Below are positions 1 to 31,124 of a stretch of 40,568 bases of DNA, one piece after another; the first letter of the stretch is position 1, and each line of letters starts with the position of its first letter. Source of the DNA: Candidatus Kerfeldbacteria bacterium (GTDB taxonomy: Bacteria > Patescibacteriota > Patescibacteriia > UBA9570 > XYC2-FULL-38-9); the NCBI GenBank assembly GCA_018500015.2, contig JAHBAR020000039.1:1-40568 (forward strand), read 5' to 3'. The notes under the pieces are model-generated. The model saw nothing but the letters and a program-made list of their open reading frames with translations, was not told the origin of the DNA and searched no databases. The position numbers were made by a program, and so were the translations under genes.

Positions 1-733
1 CGCGACGCGAGTGGATCACTTGAAAGGAAACGGTCACAGGCACCGTTCGCTTTGTGGATGAACCGTGCGGCACAATGACCGCAAAGGTATCGATCGTCTT
101 CGTGGACAAGTCCACGAAGAAGCCCGACAACCACGGGGGCACAAAATAGTGCCGCCCGAATCGGTTCCACCACCCCACCCCCTTGCCGTTGGGGTGGAGA
201 TGGTCGAGATCGATGTCTCCGAAGAGACCGGCGAACCGGTACTCATAGCGGAGAACCAGCATCTCCCAATGGGCGTTGCCCATCGAGAGGAACCCGGAAA
301 ACTTGTTCCGGAACTTCACCAACCCGAGGTTGTTCAGGTGCACCCCATCGAGATGGGGTGCCGACGAGCCCTTTCCATGATCCCCACCCCCGCCGCTGAG
401 CCACGCCCAGAGGACGAGGGCGGTGGCGACCAGCCCCAGAACGGGGCAGGCCGCCAGGGCGAGGAAGGCGACGATGCCCCCCACGCCCGAGGAGGACGCG
501 ACCATGAGGCCGATCACGAGCACGAGGCTCGTGACACCGACCCCAAGAACAACCCGACCGACGGTCGGGTTCTGGGTCCACGGCACCTGCTGGGGTGCCG
601 GTTCGGGGTGGTGGCCGAAACGACCCCCCTCATCCTCCACCTCGACGGTGGAGGGTTGCTGCGGAGGGGGTTGATGGCCCCCTCCGTCCCCGCGGGGGCG
701 CGAACGTCCCCGCGGAACATCAGAAATCGACAT
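1..733 (-). CDS. Partial GC-rich two-helix membrane protein, unknown function
   Basis: An uninterrupted frame runs from ATG at 733 to the left edge, so the C-terminus is missing (244 codons seen). An SD-like GGAG lies about six bases before the ATG, which supports this start. Residues 1-57 are Pro/Gly/Gln/His-rich and probably disordered. Residues about 59-80 and 84-112 are two hydrophobic helices separated by a short Ser/Gly turn. After a Gly stretch (115-118), a soluble domain rich in aromatic residues follows to the edge. I recognise no family. Codons end mostly in G or C, quite unlike every other gene here, so the gene looks foreign or lies across an assembly join. It follows ftsI in the same direction, but its own promoters lie between them. 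The overlapping plus-strand frame is taken as its GC-driven antisense shadow. Confidence 0.55.
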   Translation of the reverse strand, partial: MSISDVPRGRSRPRGDGGGHQPPPQQPSTVEVEDEGGRFGHHPEPAPQQVPWTQNPTVGRVVLGVGVTSLVLVIGLMVASSSGVGGIVAFLALAACPVLGLVATALVLWAWLSGGGGDHGKGSSAPHLDGVHLNNLGLVKFRNKFSGFLSMGNAHWEMLVLRYEYRFAGLFGDIDLDHLHPNGKGVGWWNRFGRHYFVPPWLSGFFVDLSTKTIDTFAVIVPHGSSTKRTVPVTVSFQVIHSRR

Positions 734-4237: not shown

Positions 4238-4669
4238 TTATACACCGAGTTCAGCGAGACTCTCAGCAATATCATTACTTTCCTTCTCGGTGGTTTTTTT
4301 ATACGCACTCCATGCCGACTCATCCCAGATTTCAAGACGGTCATACACGCCGGCAACAACAACTCCCTTCTTCACGTGTGCGTATTCGCGAAGATACTCA
4401 GGAATGATCATGCGACCTTGCTTGTCGAGCTCCACATCCATTGCACCAGCAAGCATCAAGCGCGCAAACGCACGCGACTTGCTTTGCGACAACGGAAGTG
4501 CAGTGAGCTTTTGAGCAAGCGCGTTCCATGCGTCCAACGTGTACACAAACAAACAACGATCAAGCCCGCGAGTGACTACCGCGCCTTTTGAGAGGTCTGC
4601 ACGAAATTTCACGGGAAGGGCCATGCGGCCTTTCTCGTCGATTGTGTGCTGGTATTCACCAATAAACAT
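4238..4669 (-). CDS. mraZ: MraZ transcriptional regulator of the dcw cluster
   Basis: A 143-residue AbrB-like DNA-binding protein with two tandem SpoVT-like halves. The first half opens with MFIGEYQHTIDEKGRMALP and the second has the matching DKQGRMIIPEYLREYA; both contain the conserved DxxGR signature. A longer reading would begin at a TTG at 4726, but that extension runs into the inverted-repeat insert and has no family counterpart, so the ATG at 4669 is chosen. MraZ oligomers bind repeats upstream of their own operon, and a matching 10-base repeat array is present at 4871-4930. It is the first gene of the dcw operon. Confidence 0.93.
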   Translation of the reverse strand: MFIGEYQHTIDEKGRMALPVKFRADLSKGAVVTRGLDRCLFVYTLDAWNALAQKLTALPLSQSKSRAFARLMLAGAMDVELDKQGRMIIPEYLREYAHVKKGVVVAGVYDRLEIWDESAWSAYKKTTEKESNDIAESLAELGV

Positions 4670-4694
4670 TGCTCTGTTGATGCGTTGGTTAGGG

Positions 4695-4846
4695 TTCTTT
4701 TTAAAATCGCGGGCTGTCGTGGGCAAAGCCGCACGACCCTTTCAGGGCTTGTTGTTCGCGCTCTCGGCTCTCTCACCGTAGGTTCCACTACGGCTCGGTC
4801 GCCTCAAGCGCTCCACAACTGCGCATCCCATCGATTTTAAAAAAGA
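4695..4846. repeat. Inverted-repeat-bounded palindromic element in the mraZ leader
   Basis: TTCTTTTTAAAATCG at 4695-4709 is inverted at 4831-4846 with one extra A. Inside are smaller hairpins, including GTCGTG/CACGAC and CCGTAG/CTACGG. The element is more GC-rich than its flanks, has no convincing gene, and occupies most of the leader between the mraZ promoter and its ATG. It resembles a MITE-like or other intergenic palindromic repeat; similar structure is seen at 38415-38611. Confidence 0.5.
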
Positions 4847-4974: not shown

Positions 4975-4982
4975 CTTGCCTG

Positions 4983-4994
4983 TGGATAACCTCC
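4983..4994. repeat. Left target-site duplication of the transposon
   Basis: TGGATAACCTCC directly before the left inverted end is repeated exactly at 8191-8202 after the right end. The identity can be read as 14 bases (TGTGGATAACCTCC) if the right end is placed two bases further in. IS1595 elements usually make 8-base duplications, so 12 or more is unusual. Confidence 0.7.
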
Positions 4995-5004
4995 CATGTA
5001 TCCC

Positions 5005-5032
5005 TTGACGGCATAATCGTATAGTGTATACT
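5005..5032 (+). promoter_or_regulatory. Transposase promoter inside the left end
   Basis: TTGACG (5005-5010), a 16-base spacer and TATACT (5027-5032). The -35 box lies inside the left inverted repeat. The transposase ATG at 5039 is only six bases after the -10 box, so the mRNA is probably leaderless. Confidence 0.55.
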
Positions 5033-5038
5033 GTTGGC

Positions 5039-5914
5039 ATGGCAAAGAAAGATAGATACGGTCTTATCGACCTACACAAAGAGTTCCCAAACGATGACGC
5101 TTGTTTAGAGCATGTATTCGATACGCTCCACTCTCGTCAGTGCTCCTGTGGTGGTACATATCACAAGGTTTCAGGACGTAAGAAGTTCCAGTGTTCAAAG
5201 TGTCGTTTTCAGATAGCTCCTATGGCAGGGACGATATTCGAGAAGTCGTCTACTCCGCTGACGTTGTGGTTTCATGCTGTATTGTTTTTCTCAAACGCAA
5301 AGTCTGGTATCTCAAGCAAACAGATGCAAAGAGAGCTCAATGTCACCTATAAGTGTGCGTATCGCATACTCAAGCAAATACGTGAGGCGCTGAAACAAGA
5401 CAATGACAAACTCTCTGGTGATGTAGAAATGGACGAAGGGTTTATCGGCGGTCGTGGCAACGGTGGTACGTACAACAAAAACTATTCTGAGGTGATGAAA
5501 GATAAAGCAAAGGTGATCGCTGCTGTAGAGCGAGGTGGCAAGATGAAAGCTCAACATGTGCCTGACGTTTCCTCTATGAGCATTTGGCAGTTTTTAGAAG
5601 ATCATATTGCACAGAATGCACACCTACTGACGGATAGCTCAAACCGCTACGACCTAGCTGTACAAGCACATGGTATGAAACGTACAGCAGTCAATCATTC
5701 TAAAAAACAGTTCGTGAAAGGTGATGCGCATGTAAATAGCGTTGAATGGTTTTGGAGCCACGTAAAGAAGTCTTTAAAAGGAACGTTTAAGTCCGTTTCA
5801 AAGGAGCAGTTGCAGAGCTATCTTGACGTGTTTGTCTGGCATTATAACAATCGACGCAACGACAGGCAGCGCTTTGAGGCTTTGCTCGGTATTTTACTAC
5901 CCGTGAAAGGATAG
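5039..5914 (+). CDS. IS1595-family (ISXO2-like) DDE transposase
   Basis: The 291-residue protein catalyses cut-and-paste or copy transposition of the surrounding element. An N-terminal zinc ribbon has Cys35, Cys37, Cys52 and Cys55. A helix-turn-helix region follows at about 88-115 (SGISSKQMQREL). The DDE core is visible as VEMDEGFIGG with Asp132, LLTDSSNRY with Asp199, and the family signature SVEWFWSHVKKSLKGTF with Glu236, then the closing WHYNNRRNDRQRFEALL. The frame is intact and of family length, so it is probably active. The ATG at 5039 is preferred to one 15 bases upstream because that one falls inside the promoter -10 region. Confidence 0.92.
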   Translation: MAKKDRYGLIDLHKEFPNDDACLEHVFDTLHSRQCSCGGTYHKVSGRKKFQCSKCRFQIAPMAGTIFEKSSTPLTLWFHAVLFFSNAKSGISSKQMQRELNVTYKCAYRILKQIREALKQDNDKLSGDVEMDEGFIGGRGNGGTYNKNYSEVMKDKAKVIAAVERGGKMKAQHVPDVSSMSIWQFLEDHIAQNAHLLTDSSNRYDLAVQAHGMKRTAVNHSKKQFVKGDAHVNSVEWFWSHVKKSLKGTFKSVSKEQLQSYLDVFVWHYNNRRNDRQRFEALLGILLPVKG

Positions 5915-5932
5915 AGAGGAAAGTTGATTTTG

Positions 5933-8128
5933 TCATTCAAATAAAGAATTTAACTCTTGTTTAATTTTTTCTGTAGTTTCTTTTATCTTTTTTTCATTCG
6001 CTTGAATTTCTTTTTCTTTATTTTCTAAATCCTTAACAATTTCCTCTTGAACCTTAATGGGTAATAGTGGTATTTGAAAATCCGAAAGAAAGCCGAGGCG
6101 AATGTAAGGCATCGTCGTGCCTAGTGTCTTATCTGAAAAATACTCCTGTAACTTGTTTTTTAAAACAAAATATAGATATTTAGGCAGAATTGTTTTTGCA
6201 AAATCAGATAAAATGTATGTTCGTTGGTATGCTTCAAATTTCCCTTTATAGTATTTAGTATCACCTACCTGTCCATTCCCAGCAATCAAAATCGCCTCCT
6301 TATCAAAAGAATAATCATCACTAAATGTATACTCTTTTGCACAAGTAAAAAACGGATATTGCCCGTATGGGTTTCCTTCGTTGACATCTTTTTTTCCTGT
6401 GGTGATTAAACAAATATCTTTCAAGAAGGCAAACCCACTTTTGAGAGATTCTTTTTGTTTTAAATACTGACTACCTGAAAAATCATAGTTATTATTTTTT
6501 ACCTTTTCAATATCAATGAGACTGAATCCTATTGAAAGAATTTCTTTTTCGTTTTCTCTCTTAAAATTAGTAGAATTGACTGTCTGTAAATCATTTTTTC
6601 CCGCTATTTTTTTTCTCTGGTTATCTAATGTATATCCATCATTTTTAACATCAAAGTAAAAAAAGTATTTTTGTAAATTATTTGTTCTCACATTTGTAAA
6701 ATAGAGAATATCAGTTTTTACTAAAGTGTACGGTAGAAATACACCTTTTGGTAAAGAAATTACTGTTTGCAATTTAGCATTTTCTAATAAAAATTTTCTA
6801 ACATTTTTTAATGCGTTTTTTACCAAAAATCCCTCAGGGACAACTAACGCCATTCTTCCGCCATCTTTTAGTGACCGTAGACAATGCAAAACGCATACAG
6901 CGTCACCGCTGTTTTTTGCAATACCATTATAGTATAAATCTGTTGGCGGTTTTTTTTGTGAAAAAGGGATGTTTGAAATAACGACGTCAAATTCTTTATC
7001 TCTGGGATGCATAAGACTATTTATTTTTTGCACACCAGAATGACCGTCACCCTGCAAAATCATATTCATTTTTGCAATACGAGCAGTAGTAGTTAATTCG
7101 CCACCAAAAATAGTTTGTGTTTTTAATAATTCTTCACTGCTCGAATCATCAATAATGGTATTCTCTTTTATATATTTGAACGCTTCGGTTAAAAATCCCC
7201 CTGTACCACAAAATGGATCGTACACTCTTTCTTTAAAGACGGGATTTGCCAAATGAACAATCGTTTTGACAATATGGCGTGGAGTAAAATACTCACCTAA
7301 ATCATTGTCAGTTGATGTTGTTTTTTGTAGAAAATACTCAAAAGCATCACCTTTAATGTCTGTATCAATTGTACTAAGGATAAGCGGATCAAGACGCTCA
7401 ATAATTTCCCGTATAGTTTTCGGATTTTCTATAAATAATTTAGTAAAAACATCCCCTCCATATTCTTTTTTGATTTCTTCTATTACATATCCGTTGATAA
7501 ATCCTAGAATATCTGTATCCTTTTGATTTTTTATTGATGTCCAATAATCATGTTTGCCGTTTTCACTCAATAACTTTAAAAAGAGTATATTTGCAAATTC
7601 ACTTAGTCGTTCAATTCCAGCCCTCAAGCCCTCTGCGCGTAATGTGTTATTTAAATCTTTGAATACTCTGATTAGCTCTTGTCTAGAAATGACAACATTT
7701 TTAGGAAGTGTATAAACTTCATTAGAATTTTCTTTTAAAAACTCTAATGCCTCCCTTTCTCTTAATAATTCTCTTACTTCTTCTCCGTTAAGAATTAATG
7801 GTTTTTTGTTTACTAAAAAACGAGTCTCACAGTAAGCGCCATTCATAGCAAAAATAAGAGGTGCATTCAATGCTTGTGCGTATCGTTCTCCCTGCTCAAG
7901 TGCTTTTTGTAGATCGATCCCTCCTTTTTTTGCCTCAATTATTCCTATCGCCTTTTTAGTCTCTGTTTCATACAAAATATAATCAGGATGCTTGCCTTTT
8001 AATTTTTTCTTTAATTGTTCATCTTTTGGACTTTCAAGATGAACATTACAATTTGGATCGGATGGATCAATAATCCAGCCTTTATTTTTTAAGTTGTTAT
8101 CTATTATATAGCGTGTATCTGCTTCCAT
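5933..8128 (-). CDS. Single-chain restriction-modification protein (nuclease-HsdM-HsdS fusion)
   Basis: 731 residues joining three activities usually split among subunits. Residues about 1-110 are an HSDR_N-like PD-(D/E)xK nuclease: HPDY with Asp49 and IIEAKK with Glu65 and Lys67. Residues about 145-540 are an HsdM-type N6-adenine methyltransferase: GEYFTPR at 278-284, SAM motif DPFCGTGG at 304-311, catalytic motif NIPF at 386-389 in place of the usual NPPF/Y. Residues about 570-690 are one HsdS-like target-recognition domain, followed by a Lys/Glu-rich coiled coil. A type IIG/IIL-like or methylation-dependent mode is plausible; no translocase is present. It is clearly more AT-rich than host genes and is convergent with the transposase inside one pair of inverted ends. 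Confidence 0.85.
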   Translation of the reverse strand: MEADTRYIIDNNLKNKGWIIDPSDPNCNVHLESPKDEQLKKKLKGKHPDYILYETETKKAIGIIEAKKGGIDLQKALEQGERYAQALNAPLIFAMNGAYCETRFLVNKKPLILNGEEVRELLREREALEFLKENSNEVYTLPKNVVISRQELIRVFKDLNNTLRAEGLRAGIERLSEFANILFLKLLSENGKHDYWTSIKNQKDTDILGFINGYVIEEIKKEYGGDVFTKLFIENPKTIREIIERLDPLILSTIDTDIKGDAFEYFLQKTTSTDNDLGEYFTPRHIVKTIVHLANPVFKERVYDPFCGTGGFLTEAFKYIKENTIIDDSSSEELLKTQTIFGGELTTTARIAKMNMILQGDGHSGVQKINSLMHPRDKEFDVVISNIPFSQKKPPTDLYYNGIAKNSGDAVCVLHCLRSLKDGGRMALVVPEGFLVKNALKNVRKFLLENAKLQTVISLPKGVFLPYTLVKTDILYFTNVRTNNLQKYFFYFDVKNDGYTLDNQRKKIAGKNDLQTVNSTNFKRENEKEILSIGFSLIDIEKVKNNNYDFSGSQYLKQKESLKSGFAFLKDICLITTGKKDVNEGNPYGQYPFFTCAKEYTFSDDYSFDKEAILIAGNGQVGDTKYYKGKFEAYQRTYILSDFAKTILPKYLYFVLKNKLQEYFSDKTLGTTMPYIRLGFLSDFQIPLLPIKVQEEIVKDLENKEKEIQANEKKIKETTEKIKQELNSLFE

Positions 8129-8190
8129 AGCTATTTATAGTAACAGAATAGTTTATCGATGTTAAGCATTATGCTCACAGGGGATACATG

Positions 8191-8202
8191 TGGATAACCT
8201 CC
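8191..8202. repeat. Right target-site duplication of the transposon
   Basis: TGGATAACCTCC, an exact copy of 4983-4994. It ends two bases before the histidine kinase stop codon (8205-8207), so the transposon inserted immediately behind that gene without cutting it. Confidence 0.7.
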
Positions 8203-8204
8203 AA

Positions 8205-9884
8205 CTATTCGCTCATGGATTCGATTGTCTTCCTGTCGCTTGGAATCGGTAGCGTCATAATAAATGTCGTACCTTTTCCCTGCTCTGAAACAAAACGAAT
8301 GGTTCCTCGATGTTCGATGATAATGTTTTTTACAATGTACAAACCCAAACCCGAGCCCAGCGTGTCCTTTTCTTTTGCATACCCACCTCGGAAGAATTTC
8401 ATAAATACGCGGTCGTGTTCATCTTGTGGGATACCGATGCCATGATCCTCAACCTCGACGATAAACCGCTGCTCTTGCGCATACACGCGAACGTGCACCT
8501 CTGTTCCTGCGCGAGAATATTTTACTGCGTTATCAACAATATTTTGAATCGCGATACGAAACTTGTGAACATCAACATCAATAAACGAGAGCTGGGCAGT
8601 TTTTTGCACGTACCGCACATGCACACCACTCCGTTCGGCATCTAGATCTGCGTGCTCAACAATCTCCTTGATAATTTTTGCGGCGTTGGTGCGCGTAAAT
8701 GTGTACTGCAAACGGCCTTGTTCGATTTCTGAAACATTCAACAGATGATTAACAGTTTCGATCACCTCTTCGTTGCGCTCAAATGCCTGATTGAGTAACC
8801 GACGTTGTTTTTCAGTGACGGGACCTGCATCACCATCAGACATCATTTTAAAAAACCATTTGATTGCAGCAAGTGGCGTACGAAGCTGATGCGCCGCAGT
8901 AGAGATAAAATCAGATTTTACTTCTTCAATTTGTTTTTCACGAGTATCGTCGTGAAGGACTTTGAGCCAAAAAACAATATTGCCTTCTGCAGAGCGTACC
9001 GGAATGGAATCGATGGTAAGATACAGTGTCGCGCCTCCACGCTCAAGCACAACCTCTTGATCAAGGAGTTTATGTGGCGTTTGGTCGCGCAAAATAGTGA
9101 TAAGCGGAGTGTACGCTTTTGAAAAGCGGCGTGTATCAAGCAATATGGGTTCATCATTTGCCACGTTCAACAGTTCACGCGTTGTTTGATTATTAAGAAT
9201 CACGGATCGATCTTTATTGATGAGAATGATTCCATCAATTAATGATTGGAATAATGACTTCGTCGTGTCTTGTTCAACAAGGAGCTGGGCAGTGCGCTCT
9301 TGAATCAAACGGTTGATGAACACGGAAAGAATACCAACGAAAAAAAGTGTAATGGATACGGCGAGCATCTGACTAATCACCAACTGAGCGCTCGTATCAC
9401 GAATCATTGGAGCGTCGAACGGATTGAGATGAGGAAAAATATTCAAGTACTCTAAAATAATCATCATGTCATAACAAAAAATAGCGGCGCACGCTGTGAT
9501 AATGACAAAAAAATCGCTGAGCAAAATGGTTGCCATGAGGATTGTGAACACATAGAGCAAAAATCCAATGCTGGTCACACCACCCGTTACATAGATAATG
9601 CCAGTAAAAAAGATAATATCGACAATAACCTGTGCTACACTCAGGCTGCGTATTTTTCTGGCCGACAACTCGGTTCTTAGTATGATGTGGTACACGGCGT
9701 TATACACTGCCGGAACAAGTGACAAAACAATCCACAGTACCCACAAACCCACAGTATGAGTGTTGTACATCATGTGCTGTATGAAGCCAAGTAGGGTAAA
9801 GCCAAGGACCAAAAACCAGCGTGTGATGACGATCCGTCGCAAGGAAAAAATAGTGTGCGAGTCGTAGAGGGTGGAAGCTTGCAT
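8205..9884 (-). CDS. Membrane sensor histidine kinase with PAS domain
   Basis: A 559-residue sensor kinase. The N-terminal 195 residues hold about six hydrophobic helices (about 20-35, 45-65, 85-100, 105-122, 125-148, 168-192) with no large external domain. A PAS-like segment follows at about 206-315. The phosphoacceptor helix has AAHQLRTP with His332. The ATPase domain shows the N box NIVDNAVKYS with Asn452, DHGIGIP (480-486) and GSGLGLYIV. No receiver domain and no adjacent response regulator: the only one in the window (24363-24740) heads the pilus operon, and any pairing is a guess. TATACT ends seven bases before the ATG, suggesting a leaderless mRNA. Confidence 0.9.
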   Translation of the reverse strand: MQASTLYDSHTIFSLRRIVITRWFLVLGFTLLGFIQHMMYNTHTVGLWVLWIVLSLVPAVYNAVYHIILRTELSARKIRSLSVAQVIVDIIFFTGIIYVTGGVTSIGFLLYVFTILMATILLSDFFVIITACAAIFCYDMMIILEYLNIFPHLNPFDAPMIRDTSAQLVISQMLAVSITLFFVGILSVFINRLIQERTAQLLVEQDTTKSLFQSLIDGIILINKDRSVILNNQTTRELLNVANDEPILLDTRRFSKAYTPLITILRDQTPHKLLDQEVVLERGGATLYLTIDSIPVRSAEGNIVFWLKVLHDDTREKQIEEVKSDFISTAAHQLRTPLAAIKWFFKMMSDGDAGPVTEKQRRLLNQAFERNEEVIETVNHLLNVSEIEQGRLQYTFTRTNAAKIIKEIVEHADLDAERSGVHVRYVQKTAQLSFIDVDVHKFRIAIQNIVDNAVKYSRAGTEVHVRVYAQEQRFIVEVEDHGIGIPQDEHDRVFMKFFRGGYAKEKDTLGSGLGLYIVKNIIIEHRGTIRFVSEQGKGTTFIMTLPIPSDRKTIESMSE

Positions 9885-9891
9885 GGTTTAT

Positions 9892-9924
9892 AGTATACAC
9901 AGCGCTCTTTTTTTTCGCTATACT
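9892..9924. promoter_or_regulatory. Divergent -10 boxes for histidine kinase and phosphatidyltransferase genes
   Basis: TATACT on the minus strand (9897-9892) lies seven bases before the kinase ATG (9884). TATACT on the plus strand (9919-9924) lies seven bases before the phosphatidyltransferase ATG (9932). Both would give leaderless transcripts. The two promoters share a stretch of about 45 bases. Confidence 0.5.
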
Positions 9925-9931
9925 CTTGAGT

Positions 9932-10471
9932 ATGATTGGCATGCAATGGATTCCAAATAGCATTACCGGGCTTCGCGCAGTATGTGCACTCTATATTGCA
10001 TGCGCACTTTTCGTGCCATCATTAGCATGGCTTGTGCCAGCAGTTGCGCTCATTGGCGTACTTTCCGACAAGCTCGACGGCACACTCGCGCGCATACTCA
10101 ATGCCCAAACAGTGCTCGGCAAACGACTTGAGTCGGTTGTTGACCCGCTGTTTTCGGTCTGCGGCGGCGTGTACGTACTTCTGCGCACAGACTTCCCTGT
10201 AGGATTTTTTTGGTACGGCCTCATTCTCTTCATTCTTACCTCATTGCCTCGCTTCTATATCTATCTTCGATACAAAAAATTCTTCTCTGAAAAGTCTGAG
10301 ATCACACGCTTCAGCACAGCGCTCATTTTTCTGACGATCCTTCTCTACATTTTTCAAGTTCCGTATCGAGAATATCTCGTATATATCGAAACTGTTCTAG
10401 GAACGCTCACGTGCATAAATTACGTGCGGCTACAGATGCGCTTCATAGAAAAACAAAAACGAGCTGTGTAG
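9932..10471 (+). CDS. CDP-alcohol phosphatidyltransferase family protein
   Basis: An integral membrane enzyme of about 179 residues, of the family that joins a CDP-linked lipid to an alcohol (PgsA/Cls-like). The family signature is D-x2-D-G-x2-A-R-x8-G-x3-D-x3-D; here it reads DKLDGTLAR, then G eight residues later, then E where the third Asp is usual, then D (VVDP). About five to six membrane helices are visible. The Glu-for-Asp change is conservative but sits at a metal/catalytic position, so substrate or activity may differ. The start at 9932 is chosen because of the -10 box seven bases upstream; an ATG at 9941 is possible. A terminator overlaps the stop codon. Confidence 0.8.
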   Translation: MIGMQWIPNSITGLRAVCALYIACALFVPSLAWLVPAVALIGVLSDKLDGTLARILNAQTVLGKRLESVVDPLFSVCGGVYVLLRTDFPVGFFWYGLILFILTSLPRFYIYLRYKKFFSEKSEITRFSTALIFLTILLYIFQVPYREYLVYIETVLGTLTCINYVRLQMRFIEKQKRAV

Positions 10472-10482
10472 AGCTCGTTTTT
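10455..10482. terminator. Bidirectional terminator between phosphatidyltransferase and pepA genes
   Basis: AAAAACGAGCT (10455-10465) pairs with AGCTCGTTTTT (10472-10482) around a six-base loop. A/T tracts on both sides allow it to serve both convergent genes. The stem overlaps the TAG at 10469-10471. Confidence 0.8.
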
Positions 10483-10486
10483 AAAA

Positions 10487-12028
10487 TTACTTTTTCCAAC
10501 GCTTTCCTGAAAGGGAAAGTAACATGTGTAAAAATGTACGAACGCCATACCCGGATGCACCTTCTGGCACATAGGACTTTACTACGCGATCAACCCATGC
10601 CGGGCCGGCAATATCAAGGTGAGCCCATGGAGTTTTTTCAACAAACTTTTGTAAAAACATTGCGCCCATGGTCGTGCCTGCCCAGTTGACTGGAGGCAAG
10701 TTGTTGAGGTCAGCAATTTTACTTTCAAGGAACACTGCATAGTCATCAACAAGTGGCAGCGGCCAAAGATTTTCGTCCGTTGCTGTAGCACTTGCAGTAA
10801 TTGCGTCCACAAGTTCGGGATTGCTTCCCATGATACCGGCGTATTCTTGACCAAGAGCATAAATTGCAGCACCGGTGAGAGTTGCAGCGTCAACGAGAAT
10901 ATCCGGTTGGATATTTTTCTCGGCCCACGCGAGTGCATCGGCAAGCACAAGTCGACCTTCGGCGTCGGTGTGTCCGATCTCAATGGTTTTTCCACTATAA
11001 CTTGTCACGACATCGCCCGGCTTCATTGCTGAGCCCGATGACATATTTTCTGTTGCAGCAATCACGCCATGAAATTCGATGTTTGGTTGTAGCTCTTCAA
11101 GCACGGAGAACATACCAATGATCATACCAGCGGCTGCCATGTCGTATTTCATCCCATCCATGTGTACTCCCGGTTTTACTTGCAAACCACCGGAATCAAA
11201 AGTGATGCCTTTGCCGCACAATGCAAACTTCATTGCTGCCTTCATTGCACTCTTTGGGCCTTTTGGAGTGTAGCGCAAATGAATGAGGTATGGTTCTTGC
11301 TCAGAGCCAGAAGCAACCGCGAGAATGGTGTTCAGTCCAAGCTTCTTCATTGCAGCGCGATTGTACGCAGTGACTTTCACGCTCGATGACGTAAGCTTTT
11401 GCGCGCTCTTCAGAAGCACGGTTGGTGTCATGTGGTTTGCCGGCGCGTTGATCAAATTACGAGCATACACAGTACCTTGTGCAAAGAGAGAACCAAGGCG
11501 GATGCCTTTATCAATTGTGCGTTCATATTTTTTTGATGCGACGTATGCGATATGTGTCAGCGGTTTCTTTTTTGCATCTTCTTCAGTTTTGTATTGCGCG
11601 TATTGATATGTAGCTAGAATGACAGATTCAGCAAGCGCTTGTGAGAGCGTTTCAACCGATGATACATCTTGAGAAACACATGCATCGAACATTACCCCCA
11701 TACGCGTCATTTTCATACGTTGCACAAGTTGCGCGCCGCTCCCGATCATGCGGCGAGCGCGCTCTGTCGTCCACTGTTCTTTTTTTCCAATACCGTAAAA
11801 CACAACGCGGCGCACAGAAGAGTTGTCGTCGGTTGAACGCACAAGTAGAGTGGTGTTCCATTTTCCTGTAAATGCTTCGTCATGCGCAACATCCTGTGCG
11901 TGTGAAAAAGCGTTTGTGATTGCAATTGGCAACTCAGGTAATACTTTTGCGTCCTCCAACACGGGTACGAGCAACACATCAAGTGCGGTACTCTGTATGT
12001 GCTTTACGTCAAGAAATGTCTGTTTCAT
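10487..12028 (-). CDS. pepA: Leucyl aminopeptidase, M17 family
   Basis: A cytosolic, two-metal aminopeptidase that releases N-terminal residues from peptides. Of 513 residues, the N-terminal third is the variable domain and the C-terminal part the catalytic domain. The conserved metal and catalytic segments are present: CGKGITFDSGG with Lys and Asp ligands, KPGVHMDGMKYDM, and TDAEGRLVLADAL carrying the Asp/Glu ligands and the catalytic Arg. The usual Asn before TDAEGRL is His here. The frame is open further upstream, but that part reads as intergenic sequence, so the ATG at 12028 is used. A weak -10, TATGAT, lies at 12061-12056. The gene is convergent with the phosphatidyltransferase gene and divergent from suf. 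Confidence 0.93.
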   Translation of the reverse strand: MKQTFLDVKHIQSTALDVLLVPVLEDAKVLPELPIAITNAFSHAQDVAHDEAFTGKWNTTLLVRSTDDNSSVRRVVFYGIGKKEQWTTERARRMIGSGAQLVQRMKMTRMGVMFDACVSQDVSSVETLSQALAESVILATYQYAQYKTEEDAKKKPLTHIAYVASKKYERTIDKGIRLGSLFAQGTVYARNLINAPANHMTPTVLLKSAQKLTSSSVKVTAYNRAAMKKLGLNTILAVASGSEQEPYLIHLRYTPKGPKSAMKAAMKFALCGKGITFDSGGLQVKPGVHMDGMKYDMAAAGMIIGMFSVLEELQPNIEFHGVIAATENMSSGSAMKPGDVVTSYSGKTIEIGHTDAEGRLVLADALAWAEKNIQPDILVDAATLTGAAIYALGQEYAGIMGSNPELVDAITASATATDENLWPLPLVDDYAVFLESKIADLNNLPPVNWAGTTMGAMFLQKFVEKTPWAHLDIAGPAWVDRVVKSYVPEGASGYGVRTFLHMLLSLSGKRWKK

Positions 12029-28668: not shown

Positions 28669-30450
28669 TTAAAACCTTGGTCCTCTTCTTGGCGGTAATT
28701 CGTCGACAAAAATTTTGGGTAAATTTTGAAAACATGCTCGATGCTGGCTCACATCTTGTATGTGTCCCGCTGCAACAAGACGCTGTGCTATAGCATAATG
28801 ATCAGATCTTTTGAGCGTAGCAACATGTTGCACAACTTGAGGATCAAGACCCATATGAATGAGCTGAAAAACATATTTTTGCTCATCAATGCCGTTGATC
28901 TGACCAAGATATTGAGGCAGTAACTCTGGAGCCTGCGCTAACACGTCTTCAGCAATAGCAGGATGAGCTCTACTATCAAACACATGCAGATTGGAAAGCA
29001 CCAACTCTTTTGGAAATTCCGCGAGCATAATGCGTGCTGTATCGACATTCAACTGTGTATACTTACCGATGTGTGCAGCGACTAAATCTTTCTTACCACT
29101 ACTTATAAGTCTCAAAACCAAACCATCATAGGGTACATCACTAAAGCTTCCGAGATGCTTAGCAATTTGTATAACGTATCCATTCTCCAAACCCCATTGC
29201 ACAACTTCGCGAGAGAGTCCGTAGACTTGATCTAAGTTGTTCATCAATCTATCGCATTGTCCATCTGCAATCAATCTTCTTGCAAGGTGGTCGTAATCCA
29301 TACTCACAAAACTACGCACATTATCAAACACTGCTAACCCAAACCCATCGTCAATCAACATCTTGGCACATTCCTTGTTCAGTTTTTTAAAAAGTCTTAA
29401 AGACACTGCGCACGCGGCATTGTATCCAGCAAGACAGAGAAGTCGGCAAATACCACTATGATATTCATCAGGAAAATAATCAATGTATTCTGGAATATAT
29501 TTAGGGCAATGCTTTAAAAGCTCAAGAGAAAGAAGTGCGTAGTCTATACCTGAGTATCGTAGTAAATGACCAAGAACGAAAAGCCCCTCACCTCGTTCAA
29601 TAAGTTTCATTGCCAGTTCGTGATTTGGACCCTGTACATGCTCAATATAAATTGCAACACTCCTCGCTGCTCCGCACTCAACCAGTTGCATAGCCTCCTG
29701 CACTCCAATGGGATACTGTAGCTTCACAGTACCTTCTATCCAGCGTAAAGAAGTCATTGCCGCAACATCCGCAACAGTGTTCGCTACCCATTCTCCAATA
29801 TACACTCGTGTACGCGAAGTCATTGGCGCAGGTGCGTGGACAATCTGATCGAGTTCATGAGCATCAAAAACTGTGCGCATATCCACCATTCTATTACGTC
29901 GTTTTTGTAGTCGCACAATTCGGGCACTGGCTTCAATACCAAATCCTTCAATCTTTCTATCAAACTCATGCAGAAAACGTAGATCAGCAGCATCCAGCGA
30001 CCCTCCTGATTCGTGCAGAGATTCGATCCGATTGAACTGTTGCATATCTCTGAGTTTTGGAAGAAAACGTTCGCCGTGAGGCAGCTCCAGTAACTTAGTT
30101 TCCACAACAGGCAACATACGCGCATCCACATTTTGCTTAGACTCTATACCCCGAACTTCAGAGACCAATCCATCAACAACCACCATGGAAACGCGCGGAA
30201 TAGTTGGGTGACCATCTGCATCATTCGAGAAAAAGAGATGCATATCACCTCCACGCTGGCGGTCGTTGCCCTGAATGTACGCCTTTGCTGATTCAGGGCC
30301 TCGTGTGCACCACCCCGTACCAAACTGTTTGATATCATCAACAAGCTTCATATGATCTGAACCTTTTGGATACACTCTCCAACTTCCTTCAGTGATCTGG
30401 AGCAACTCTGTATTGATAGGTTTAAAATGTTCAAGTAACCAACCATACAT
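28669..30450 (-). CDS. C-terminal part of a large frameshifted protein with a GTGWCTRG motif
   Basis: 593 residues from the first ATG (30450); the frame is open back to about 30559, where it meets the upstream frame at a slippery site. Residues about 22-110 contain ITEGSWRVYPKGSDH, GTGWCTRGPESAKAYIQGND, DMHLFFSNDADGHPTIPRVSMVVVDG and EVRGIESKQNVD. I recall this pattern from uncharacterised CPR proteins, and it recalls the PcfJ-like fold. The remaining 400 residues are helical with repeat-like Leu/Ala/Gly spacing and an IxxGxxxLV motif (about 35-residue units), like a HEAT/ankyrin-type solenoid. Function is unknown. Translation as a stand-alone gene is possible, but the conserved-looking part begins upstream of this ATG. 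Confidence 0.6.
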   Translation of the reverse strand: MYGWLLEHFKPINTELLQITEGSWRVYPKGSDHMKLVDDIKQFGTGWCTRGPESAKAYIQGNDRQRGGDMHLFFSNDADGHPTIPRVSMVVVDGLVSEVRGIESKQNVDARMLPVVETKLLELPHGERFLPKLRDMQQFNRIESLHESGGSLDAADLRFLHEFDRKIEGFGIEASARIVRLQKRRNRMVDMRTVFDAHELDQIVHAPAPMTSRTRVYIGEWVANTVADVAAMTSLRWIEGTVKLQYPIGVQEAMQLVECGAARSVAIYIEHVQGPNHELAMKLIERGEGLFVLGHLLRYSGIDYALLSLELLKHCPKYIPEYIDYFPDEYHSGICRLLCLAGYNAACAVSLRLFKKLNKECAKMLIDDGFGLAVFDNVRSFVSMDYDHLARRLIADGQCDRLMNNLDQVYGLSREVVQWGLENGYVIQIAKHLGSFSDVPYDGLVLRLISSGKKDLVAAHIGKYTQLNVDTARIMLAEFPKELVLSNLHVFDSRAHPAIAEDVLAQAPELLPQYLGQINGIDEQKYVFQLIHMGLDPQVVQHVATLKRSDHYAIAQRLVAAGHIQDVSQHRACFQNLPKIFVDELPPRRGPRF

Positions 30451-30497
30451 ACGAGAAAAATTGTAGCTTTCTACAGCGCCTGCAAATTTTTGTACTT

Positions 30498-31124
30498 CTA
30501 TACCATCAATACCATATGCAAGCCCTGGATCAATTTTTTCTTCTTCAGCAAGTTTTTTTCAACTGTCTCAATAGCGATCTGTACGGCAGTCGTGTTCAGA
30601 TCAGGAAACATATACATCGTTTTTTGTGTACGATTGTTATAGGTACCTCGACCTGTGGGCGAACCCATACCAACAACGCTCCGAAATACCCAGTACCGGA
30701 GTTCGCGAGGATATTGAGCGGTCTGGGGAGAAAGTAAGTAATCAATCCACACATCCAACGAATGTGCTTGGTCTCTAATGATAGTGCTGATGCGTTCAGC
30801 TCGAGCAGTTGGAGTAAGATCATTCAAAAAATGTGCTGGAAATGATTCAGGTGCAATGACCAACTGTGCGCGCAGAAAAGCTTTGAGTATACGAATACGC
30901 TCAGCCCGTGTACGCAACGCAGAAGGGTTGTGGATTTCATCGGGTGAAAGAAAAGCTTCCATTCGATCGAAGTACGCTTGAATGCGCGCTTCAAAATCCG
31001 AAGGCGGCAACGCTTCTGCGTCTCCTGTTCGTGATCGATGTTGACGAACAGCTCGCTTCACTTCATCGGACTGACTAAAACTCTGGAAATGATTTTGCAG
31101 AAATCGTTCTCCGCGCATTGCCAT
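30498..31124 (-). CDS. N-terminal part of the frameshifted GTGWCTRG protein
   Basis: 208 residues, the last 18 of which (after IETVEK) lie past the slippery site and look like out-of-frame sequence. The body is helical and charged, with SFSQSDEVKRAVRQHRSR near the start; no family is recognised. Shifting -1 at 30552-30558 joins it to the downstream frame and gives an 818-residue product, with the junction reading EKKLAEEEKIDPGLAYGID or similar. TATATT lies seven bases before the ATG (31137-31132) with a -35-like TTCACT 18 bases further, so the mRNA may be leaderless. Confidence 0.6.
   Translation of the reverse strand: MAMRGERFLQNHFQSFSQSDEVKRAVRQHRSRTGDAEALPPSDFEARIQAYFDRMEAFLSPDEIHNPSALRTRAERIRILKAFLRAQLVIAPESFPAHFLNDLTPTARAERISTIIRDQAHSLDVWIDYLLSPQTAQYPRELRYWVFRSVVGMGSPTGRGTYNNRTQKTMYMFPDLNTTAVQIAIETVEKNLLKKKKLIQGLHMVLMV
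30552..30558 (-). other. Slippery heptamer A AAA AAC, possible -1 frameshift site
   Basis: In the frame of the gene starting at 31124 the codons read GAA AAA AAC, so A AAA AAC is in the canonical X XXY YYZ phase. A -1 slip leads exactly into the downstream 593-residue frame. No strong stem-loop was seen just behind it. A one-base loss in the A-run (seven instead of eight) would look the same, so a true mutation or sequencing error remains possible. Confidence 0.45.

Follow-up and report, generated by a model that had tools for sequence, protein, structure and literature searches.

An IS1595-family transposon with a single-chain restriction-modification-like passenger, from a clade that prefers DnaA-box sequence as its target

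The DNA analysed here, referred to as the window, is a stretch of 40,568 nucleotides from a Candidatus Kerfeldbacteria contig. Between the host genes for MraZ and a histidine kinase it harbors a transposon composed of a transposase gene of the IS1595 family and, convergent to it, a passenger gene for a restriction-modification (RM)-like protein, both enclosed by one pair of inverted ends (Table 1). The element bounds were obtained from an automatic search using inverted repeats and target site duplications as sole criteria. The first 0.9 kb of the window (positions 1-900) show a GC content of about 62% as compared with about 46% in the rest, a difference possibly due to foreign DNA or to chimerism at the contig end.

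Table 1. Features of the transposon and its surroundings (nucleotide positions in the window; residue numbers for the protein motifs)
Feature	Position	Strand	Basis or remark
Whole transposon, 3,200 bp	4993..8192	+ (transposase-oriented)	Inverted repeat 20/26 and perfect 8-bp direct repeat
Left target duplication copy GATAACCT, 8 bp	4985..4992	none	
Right target duplication copy GATAACCT, 8 bp	8193..8200	none	
Left inverted end CCCATGTATCCCTTGACGGCATAATC	4993..5018	+	
Right inverted end	8167..8192	-	
DnaA-box sequence TTATCCACA, left junction (target)	4981..4989	-	
DnaA-box sequence TTATCCACA, right junction	8189..8197	-	Last 4 bp of the element supply the TGTG half
IS1595-family transposase, 291 aa	5039..5914	+	Zinc-ribbon-like CxC...CxxC N-terminus, DDE
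Passenger, single-chain RM-like, 731 aa	5933..8128	-	Domain matches and conserved motifs
Passenger, PD-(D/E)xK nuclease motif	P48 D49 ... E65 x K67		
Passenger, N6-adenine methyltransferase motifs	DPFCGTGGFL 304-313, NIPF 386-389		
Passenger, single specificity domain	568-717		
Host mraZ, flanking, outside the element	4238..4726	-	PF02381 matches at 4268-4669
Host histidine kinase, flanking	8205..9884	-	ORF; stop codon 4 bp past the right target copy

The sequence CATGTATCCCTTGACGGCATAAT, which starts at position 4995, matches the reverse complement of the right end in 19 of 23 positions with the first ten identical, as had been originally predicted. The ten-base end CATGTATCCC occurs exactly twice in the genome of 1,070,703 bases (1.07 Mb), once at either end of the element, and the ends are thus not a product of chance. 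Inverted ends are found at the termini of the element only, none of them between the two genes, and a gene unrelated to transposition, namely the passenger, lies fully within this single pair. With one transposase and one end pair, a composite transposon made of two IS copies around a cargo is ruled out. The element is present as a single copy.

The original prediction of an exact 12-base target duplication holds with respect to the exact repeat, which even extends to 14 bp (TGTGGATAACCTCC, 4981-4994 and 8189-8202), but not with respect to the target duplication proper, which is 8 bp long. Perfect 8-bp repeats were found in more than 20 relatives by a search for inverted-repeat similarity and flanking repeats, the relatives scanned for ends originating from Patescibacteria, Acidobacteriota and viral contigs. 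Since elements inserted into other targets permit 8 bp only (L024, TATAACTC; L025, GAATATTA; L026, GACAAAAT), the duplication is GATAACCT, the element spans the bounds given in Table 1, and a target duplication of 12 or 14 bp is ruled out. The six additional identical bases are explained by the right end finishing with TGTG, as does the target flank, and by the left end starting with CC.

The transposase matches the profiles PF12762 (2.6e-29, 102.6 bits, cut-off 27) and NF033547 (2e-51, 174.9 bits, cut-off 75). Asp132, Asp199 and Glu236 as well as the zinc-ribbon cysteines are invariant in five relatives of 57-63% identity, in line with the intact DDE transposase that had been proposed. Its gene occurs once in the genome, and no sequence-similar protein was found among solved structures. 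In a tree of IS1595 relatives the clade of this transposase, which is Patescibacteria-centred, forms one branch with a support of 100/100.

The passenger is a single open reading frame with three domain parts and a GC content of about 31-33%, compared with about 45% in its surroundings, confirming the predicted AT-rich one-gene passenger. Profile matches are obtained to N6_Mtase (1.1e-54) and Methylase_S (1.4e-16), while the HSDR_N_2 match stays marginally under the Pfam cut-off (24.8 vs 25); the N-terminus of EcoAI-R matches the nuclease part at 2.8e-9. Relatives of solved structure comprise type I M subunits, BsaXI and an S subunit. The single-sequence structure model reaches a pLDDT of 34, and the putative nuclease fold is assigned from profile matches and conserved residues. 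The PD...ExK and SAM-binding motifs do not vary when the passenger is aligned with homologues from the Patescibacteria genome G585, Acinetobacter and Geobacillus. The second residue of motif IV varies (NIPF, NPPY, NMPF, NIPY), hence the NIPF of the passenger is no sign of decay. The most variable region is the C-terminal specificity part. HsdR-N-like nuclease, N6 methylase, one specificity domain and the same catalytic motifs are also the constituents of type IIG/IIC proteins. Judged by its sequence, the passenger is a type IIG-like (IIC) R-M-S chain of known architecture with intact catalytic motifs, which would be expected to cut and to methylate DNA. Its nearest full-length matches are WP_000065151.1 from an Acinetobacter baumannii plasmid (47-49%) and WP_172418938.1 from a Geobacillus plasmid, whose genes reside in plasmid backbones with no adjoining annotated IS1595 element, whereas the passenger is located inside one. 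A phage origin of the RM gene was rejected, as no relative was found among the viral contigs.

A class-level match in genome G108 was likewise rejected as an instance of the same architecture, since it consists of a fused HsdM-S protein adjoining a full HsdR (L136, 4796-7225). The specificity domain of this fusion nevertheless strikingly resembles that of the passenger (TGxKDVNEGNPxGxYPFFTCxKE), a likeness which suggests that recognition modules are exchanged between type I and single-chain systems.

At the insertion locus, the DnaA box closely follows the stop codon of the histidine kinase gene and precedes a hairpin, upstream of mraZ, and because of this position between stop codon and terminator hairpin no gene is broken. 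In several sister genomes of the same family and order, kinase and mraZ adjoin each other without an insert; one of them (G004) carries TTATACACA at the corresponding place. A near-identical empty site was not found in these genomes, which belong to other genera. In none of the genomes searched is the RM gene present at this locus in the absence of the transposase, the sister genomes having neither. The recent movement proposed in the original prediction is compatible with the 8/8 duplication, the intact genes and the low GC content, but the insertion is undated and the element single-copy. Three elements of the clade (window, L004 and L026) are inserted upstream of mraZ. Of 29 loci lacking an insertion, 6 have the exact sequence TTATCCACA in target orientation within the 600 bp preceding mraZ. 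TGTGGATAA matches of shorter range, close to the start of mraZ, were left out of these counts as probable MraZ operator repeats.

Insertion of IS1595 elements has been described as occurring into unremarkable A/T-rich DNA. The reconstructed empty site of the window, gcctgtgGATAACCTcc, has the core TTATCCACA, a DnaA box, and shows no mismatch to TTATNCACA in fixed register. Alignment of the targets of 11 two-ended clade members yields TGTG^GATAACYY, and in nine of them TTATNCACA is present in one exact register, with no more than one mismatch (P = 1.2e-26 at a background of 8.5e-4 per position, the box frequency in DNA flanking the elements at these loci). The box idea goes back to the elements identified first (window, L004, L024, L026 and L030); all five two-ended members found afterwards (L121, L122, L123, L114 and L117) agree with it. 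For L122, two end pairs score equally and the pair starting at the conserved TATCCC was used. A twelfth element with one end only, L030, has an exact box. Given that the target of L025 has no box and that of L053 is two bases short of one, the preference of the clade is not absolute. The box was absent in register from all 19 other IS1595 elements tested. Viral-contig pattern matches (L113, L116 and L118) were discarded as chance or unusable. Since a single branch comprises the whole clade, a single origin of the preference is probable. Neither the DnaA-box target nor its sharing across the clade had been part of the original prediction.

The orientation of the nine box-inserted elements relative to the box is even (4 vs 5), so that the box can be faced by either end. 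Among named genomes, the closest relative is L004 from Magasanikbacteria, which carries a different cargo and is inserted in the opposite orientation at TGTG^GATAACCT. In the window and in L121 the box is present at both junctions. The exact sequence TTATCCACA occurs at just 18 sites in the 1.07 Mb of the window genome.

Three of these boxes lie within 55 bp (G000:C9:12852-12906; L120, 4853-4907) in a gene-poor stretch of 1.2 kb near gmk and pnp. This is the sole such cluster in the genome, the dnaA gene being located on another contig (C45), and the stretch is a candidate replication origin. In the phage-like contig L115 (1697-2449), the 3' end of a methylase gene lies inside a sequence identical to the inverted end of the clade and adjoining TGTTGATAACTT; neither a second end nor a transposase was found in this contig.

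RM cargo recurs in IS1595 elements. A homologue of the passenger (46% across 559 residues in the search and 38% when the whole alignment is considered) is present in genome G585 (L105), where it is convergent to a different IS1595 transposase, truncated at the contig end, and is followed by an IS1595-type right end. Of two closed IS1595 elements, L032, with perfect 8-bp repeats, contains a D12 adenine methylase and a PDDEXK_11/DpnII-like nuclease, and L027 a type II methylase (8e-60) together with a type II restriction endonuclease (1e-7). Altogether, predicted RM functions from unrelated families are found in at least 4 of about 33 elements. The transposases of the RM-carrying elements are located in different parts of the tree, which indicates that RM genes were probably gained several times. 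Other cargo of related elements includes a reverse transcriptase, an SDH protease, BRO and DUF3800 proteins, membrane proteins and small ORFs.

Within this other cargo, an RVT_1 reverse transcriptase lies beside a small helical ORF in the closed IS1595 elements L123 (G1010, 6374-10038) and L068 (G579, 5083-10506; both in oriented coordinates). The helical ORF recalls the Avd accessory protein of diversity-generating retroelements, and the pair is possibly a core of this kind within an IS. The DnaA-box clade elements L024 (1280-1534, + strand) and L026 (6060-6362, - strand) have in common a passenger ORF of 84-100 residues with the pattern QQICFxxDGMMxCN...SKxGKWxxF. Homologous proteins of about 200 residues are encoded by the clade elements L025 (8612-9289) and L121 (G961); they show no family match and start with a membrane-helix-like stretch (FIYIGRKLQILD...). 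Elsewhere in the window, two adjoining ORFs of 593 and 208 residues (28669-31124) resemble an interrupted gene, the apparent homologue of which, likewise split in two ORFs, is IS1595 cargo in L068 (1658-3556 of the element).

Domain matches, inverted repeats and duplication bear out the prediction of an IS1595 transposon whose single end pair encloses an RM-like passenger. The reading put forward here, to which a probability of about 0.87 is assigned, is that of a transporter-type IS1595 element forming one mobile unit with its type IIG-like passenger and belonging to a clade that prefers the DnaA-box target TGTG^GATAACYY. Transposase and R-M-S passenger would move together between the single pair of inverted ends, at which the transposase would cut before joining the element across an 8-bp stagger in the target. 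This target corresponds to the DnaA box 5'-TTATNCACA-3' plus flanking bases and is used in either orientation of the element; in the orientation of the window, the terminal TGTG of the element would rebuild the box, leaving one at both junctions. The passenger may benefit the element via defence of the host, or via addiction by killing cells that lose it. A more far-reaching version, in which a site-selective clade exploits DnaA boxes as conserved landing sites at which genes are spared, possibly with the DnaA protein as mediator, re-creates the box at its junctions and ships compact RM systems and other cargo among Patescibacteria, appears rather doubtful when taken as a whole.

Several other explanations have to be weighed against this reading. 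Host DnaA bound to its boxes might recruit the transposase, such that the insertions would mark occupied boxes in promoters and origin regions. Guidance by host replication proteins is known from other transposons, the target is identical to the consensus of the DnaA box, a DnaA carrying the signature for box reading (GGRDHTTAMHA) is encoded in the genome, and both the exact boxes in uninserted loci and the three insertions upstream of mraZ are in agreement with such a recruitment. However, one exact cut register in both orientations is more simply accounted for by a transposase that reads the DNA itself, several one-mismatch targets (TTGTCCACA, TAATCCACA and TTTTGCACA) would be weak boxes, and some targets lie in phage-like contigs. 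Recruitment by DnaA is thus considered unlikely, and because of the fixed register the target is most likely read directly by the transposase. It is very improbable that the motif is instead the MraZ operator unit GTGGATAA and that the preference is one for insertion near mraZ. GTGG(A/G)TAA-type repeats do occur just upstream of mraZ in these genomes and three elements are found near this gene, but the mraZ-side insertions lie outside the repeat cluster, their boxes preceding the start codon by roughly 170-360 bp, and the remaining motif-bearing elements are away from mraZ, their neighbours including undecaprenyl-PP-synthase-like and decarboxylase-like genes, glycosyltransferases and phage contigs.

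With respect to the passenger, the varied cargo of related elements would also fit an ordinary hitchhiking defence gene without addiction, RM being one of many cargos. This is a tentative but serious alternative, somewhat short of even odds, against which stand the recurrence of RM functions from unrelated families and the over-representation of compact type IIC systems in mobile elements (PMC4176335). That RM gene and IS adjoin by chance, or that the ends are chance repeats, has a negligible probability in view of the end sequence found only twice, the perfect duplication and the same plan in relatives, and is already refuted by the anatomy of the element.

Passenger-carrying IS1595 elements have been described before, as have RM genes on mobile elements. 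'Transporter IS' of the IS1595 family are attributed to Siguier, Gagnevin and Chandler (2009) in a citation in PMC3129680, and ISApl4, an IS1595 relative of the IS1016 group, generates an 8-bp duplication (PMC12561309). These elements resemble that of the window in the DDE_Tnp_IS1595 transposase, the short inverted ends, the 8-bp duplication and the capacity for passengers. In contrast, ISApl4 inserts at varied A/T-rich 8-mers for which no motif is described (PMC12561309), whereas the clade of the window uses TGTG^GATAACYY and has ends of roughly CACANNTATCCCTTGACRNCATAAT, unlike the ISApl4/IS1016 group. IS-moved RM genes are also known as IS-flanked units (PMC3031569, with PluTI as a putative mobile element in a citation there); in these, two IS copies flank the RM genes, while in the window the RM gene lies inside a single IS. 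Gene-sparing target sites are shared with Tn7-family transposons, which employ dedicated target selectors (PMC10293859), whereas the element of the window has one transposase only and no separate selector gene. In the literature searched, which included few subscription papers, neither an IS1595 clade with a fixed target nor DnaA boxes as IS targets were found. New here is the clade-level landing preference for DnaA-box sequence, as deduced from the aligned targets.

A binding site of DnaA, the initiator of bacterial replication, is present in nearly every bacterium, usually outside genes. A clade reading DnaA-box sequence would thereby gain a near-universal, mostly intergenic site, and would illustrate in simple form, with one protein, how target choice can evolve. 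Patescibacteria are genome-reduced and rarely encode CRISPR-Cas; for the exchange of complete RM systems among these organisms, such elements would provide a concrete vehicle.
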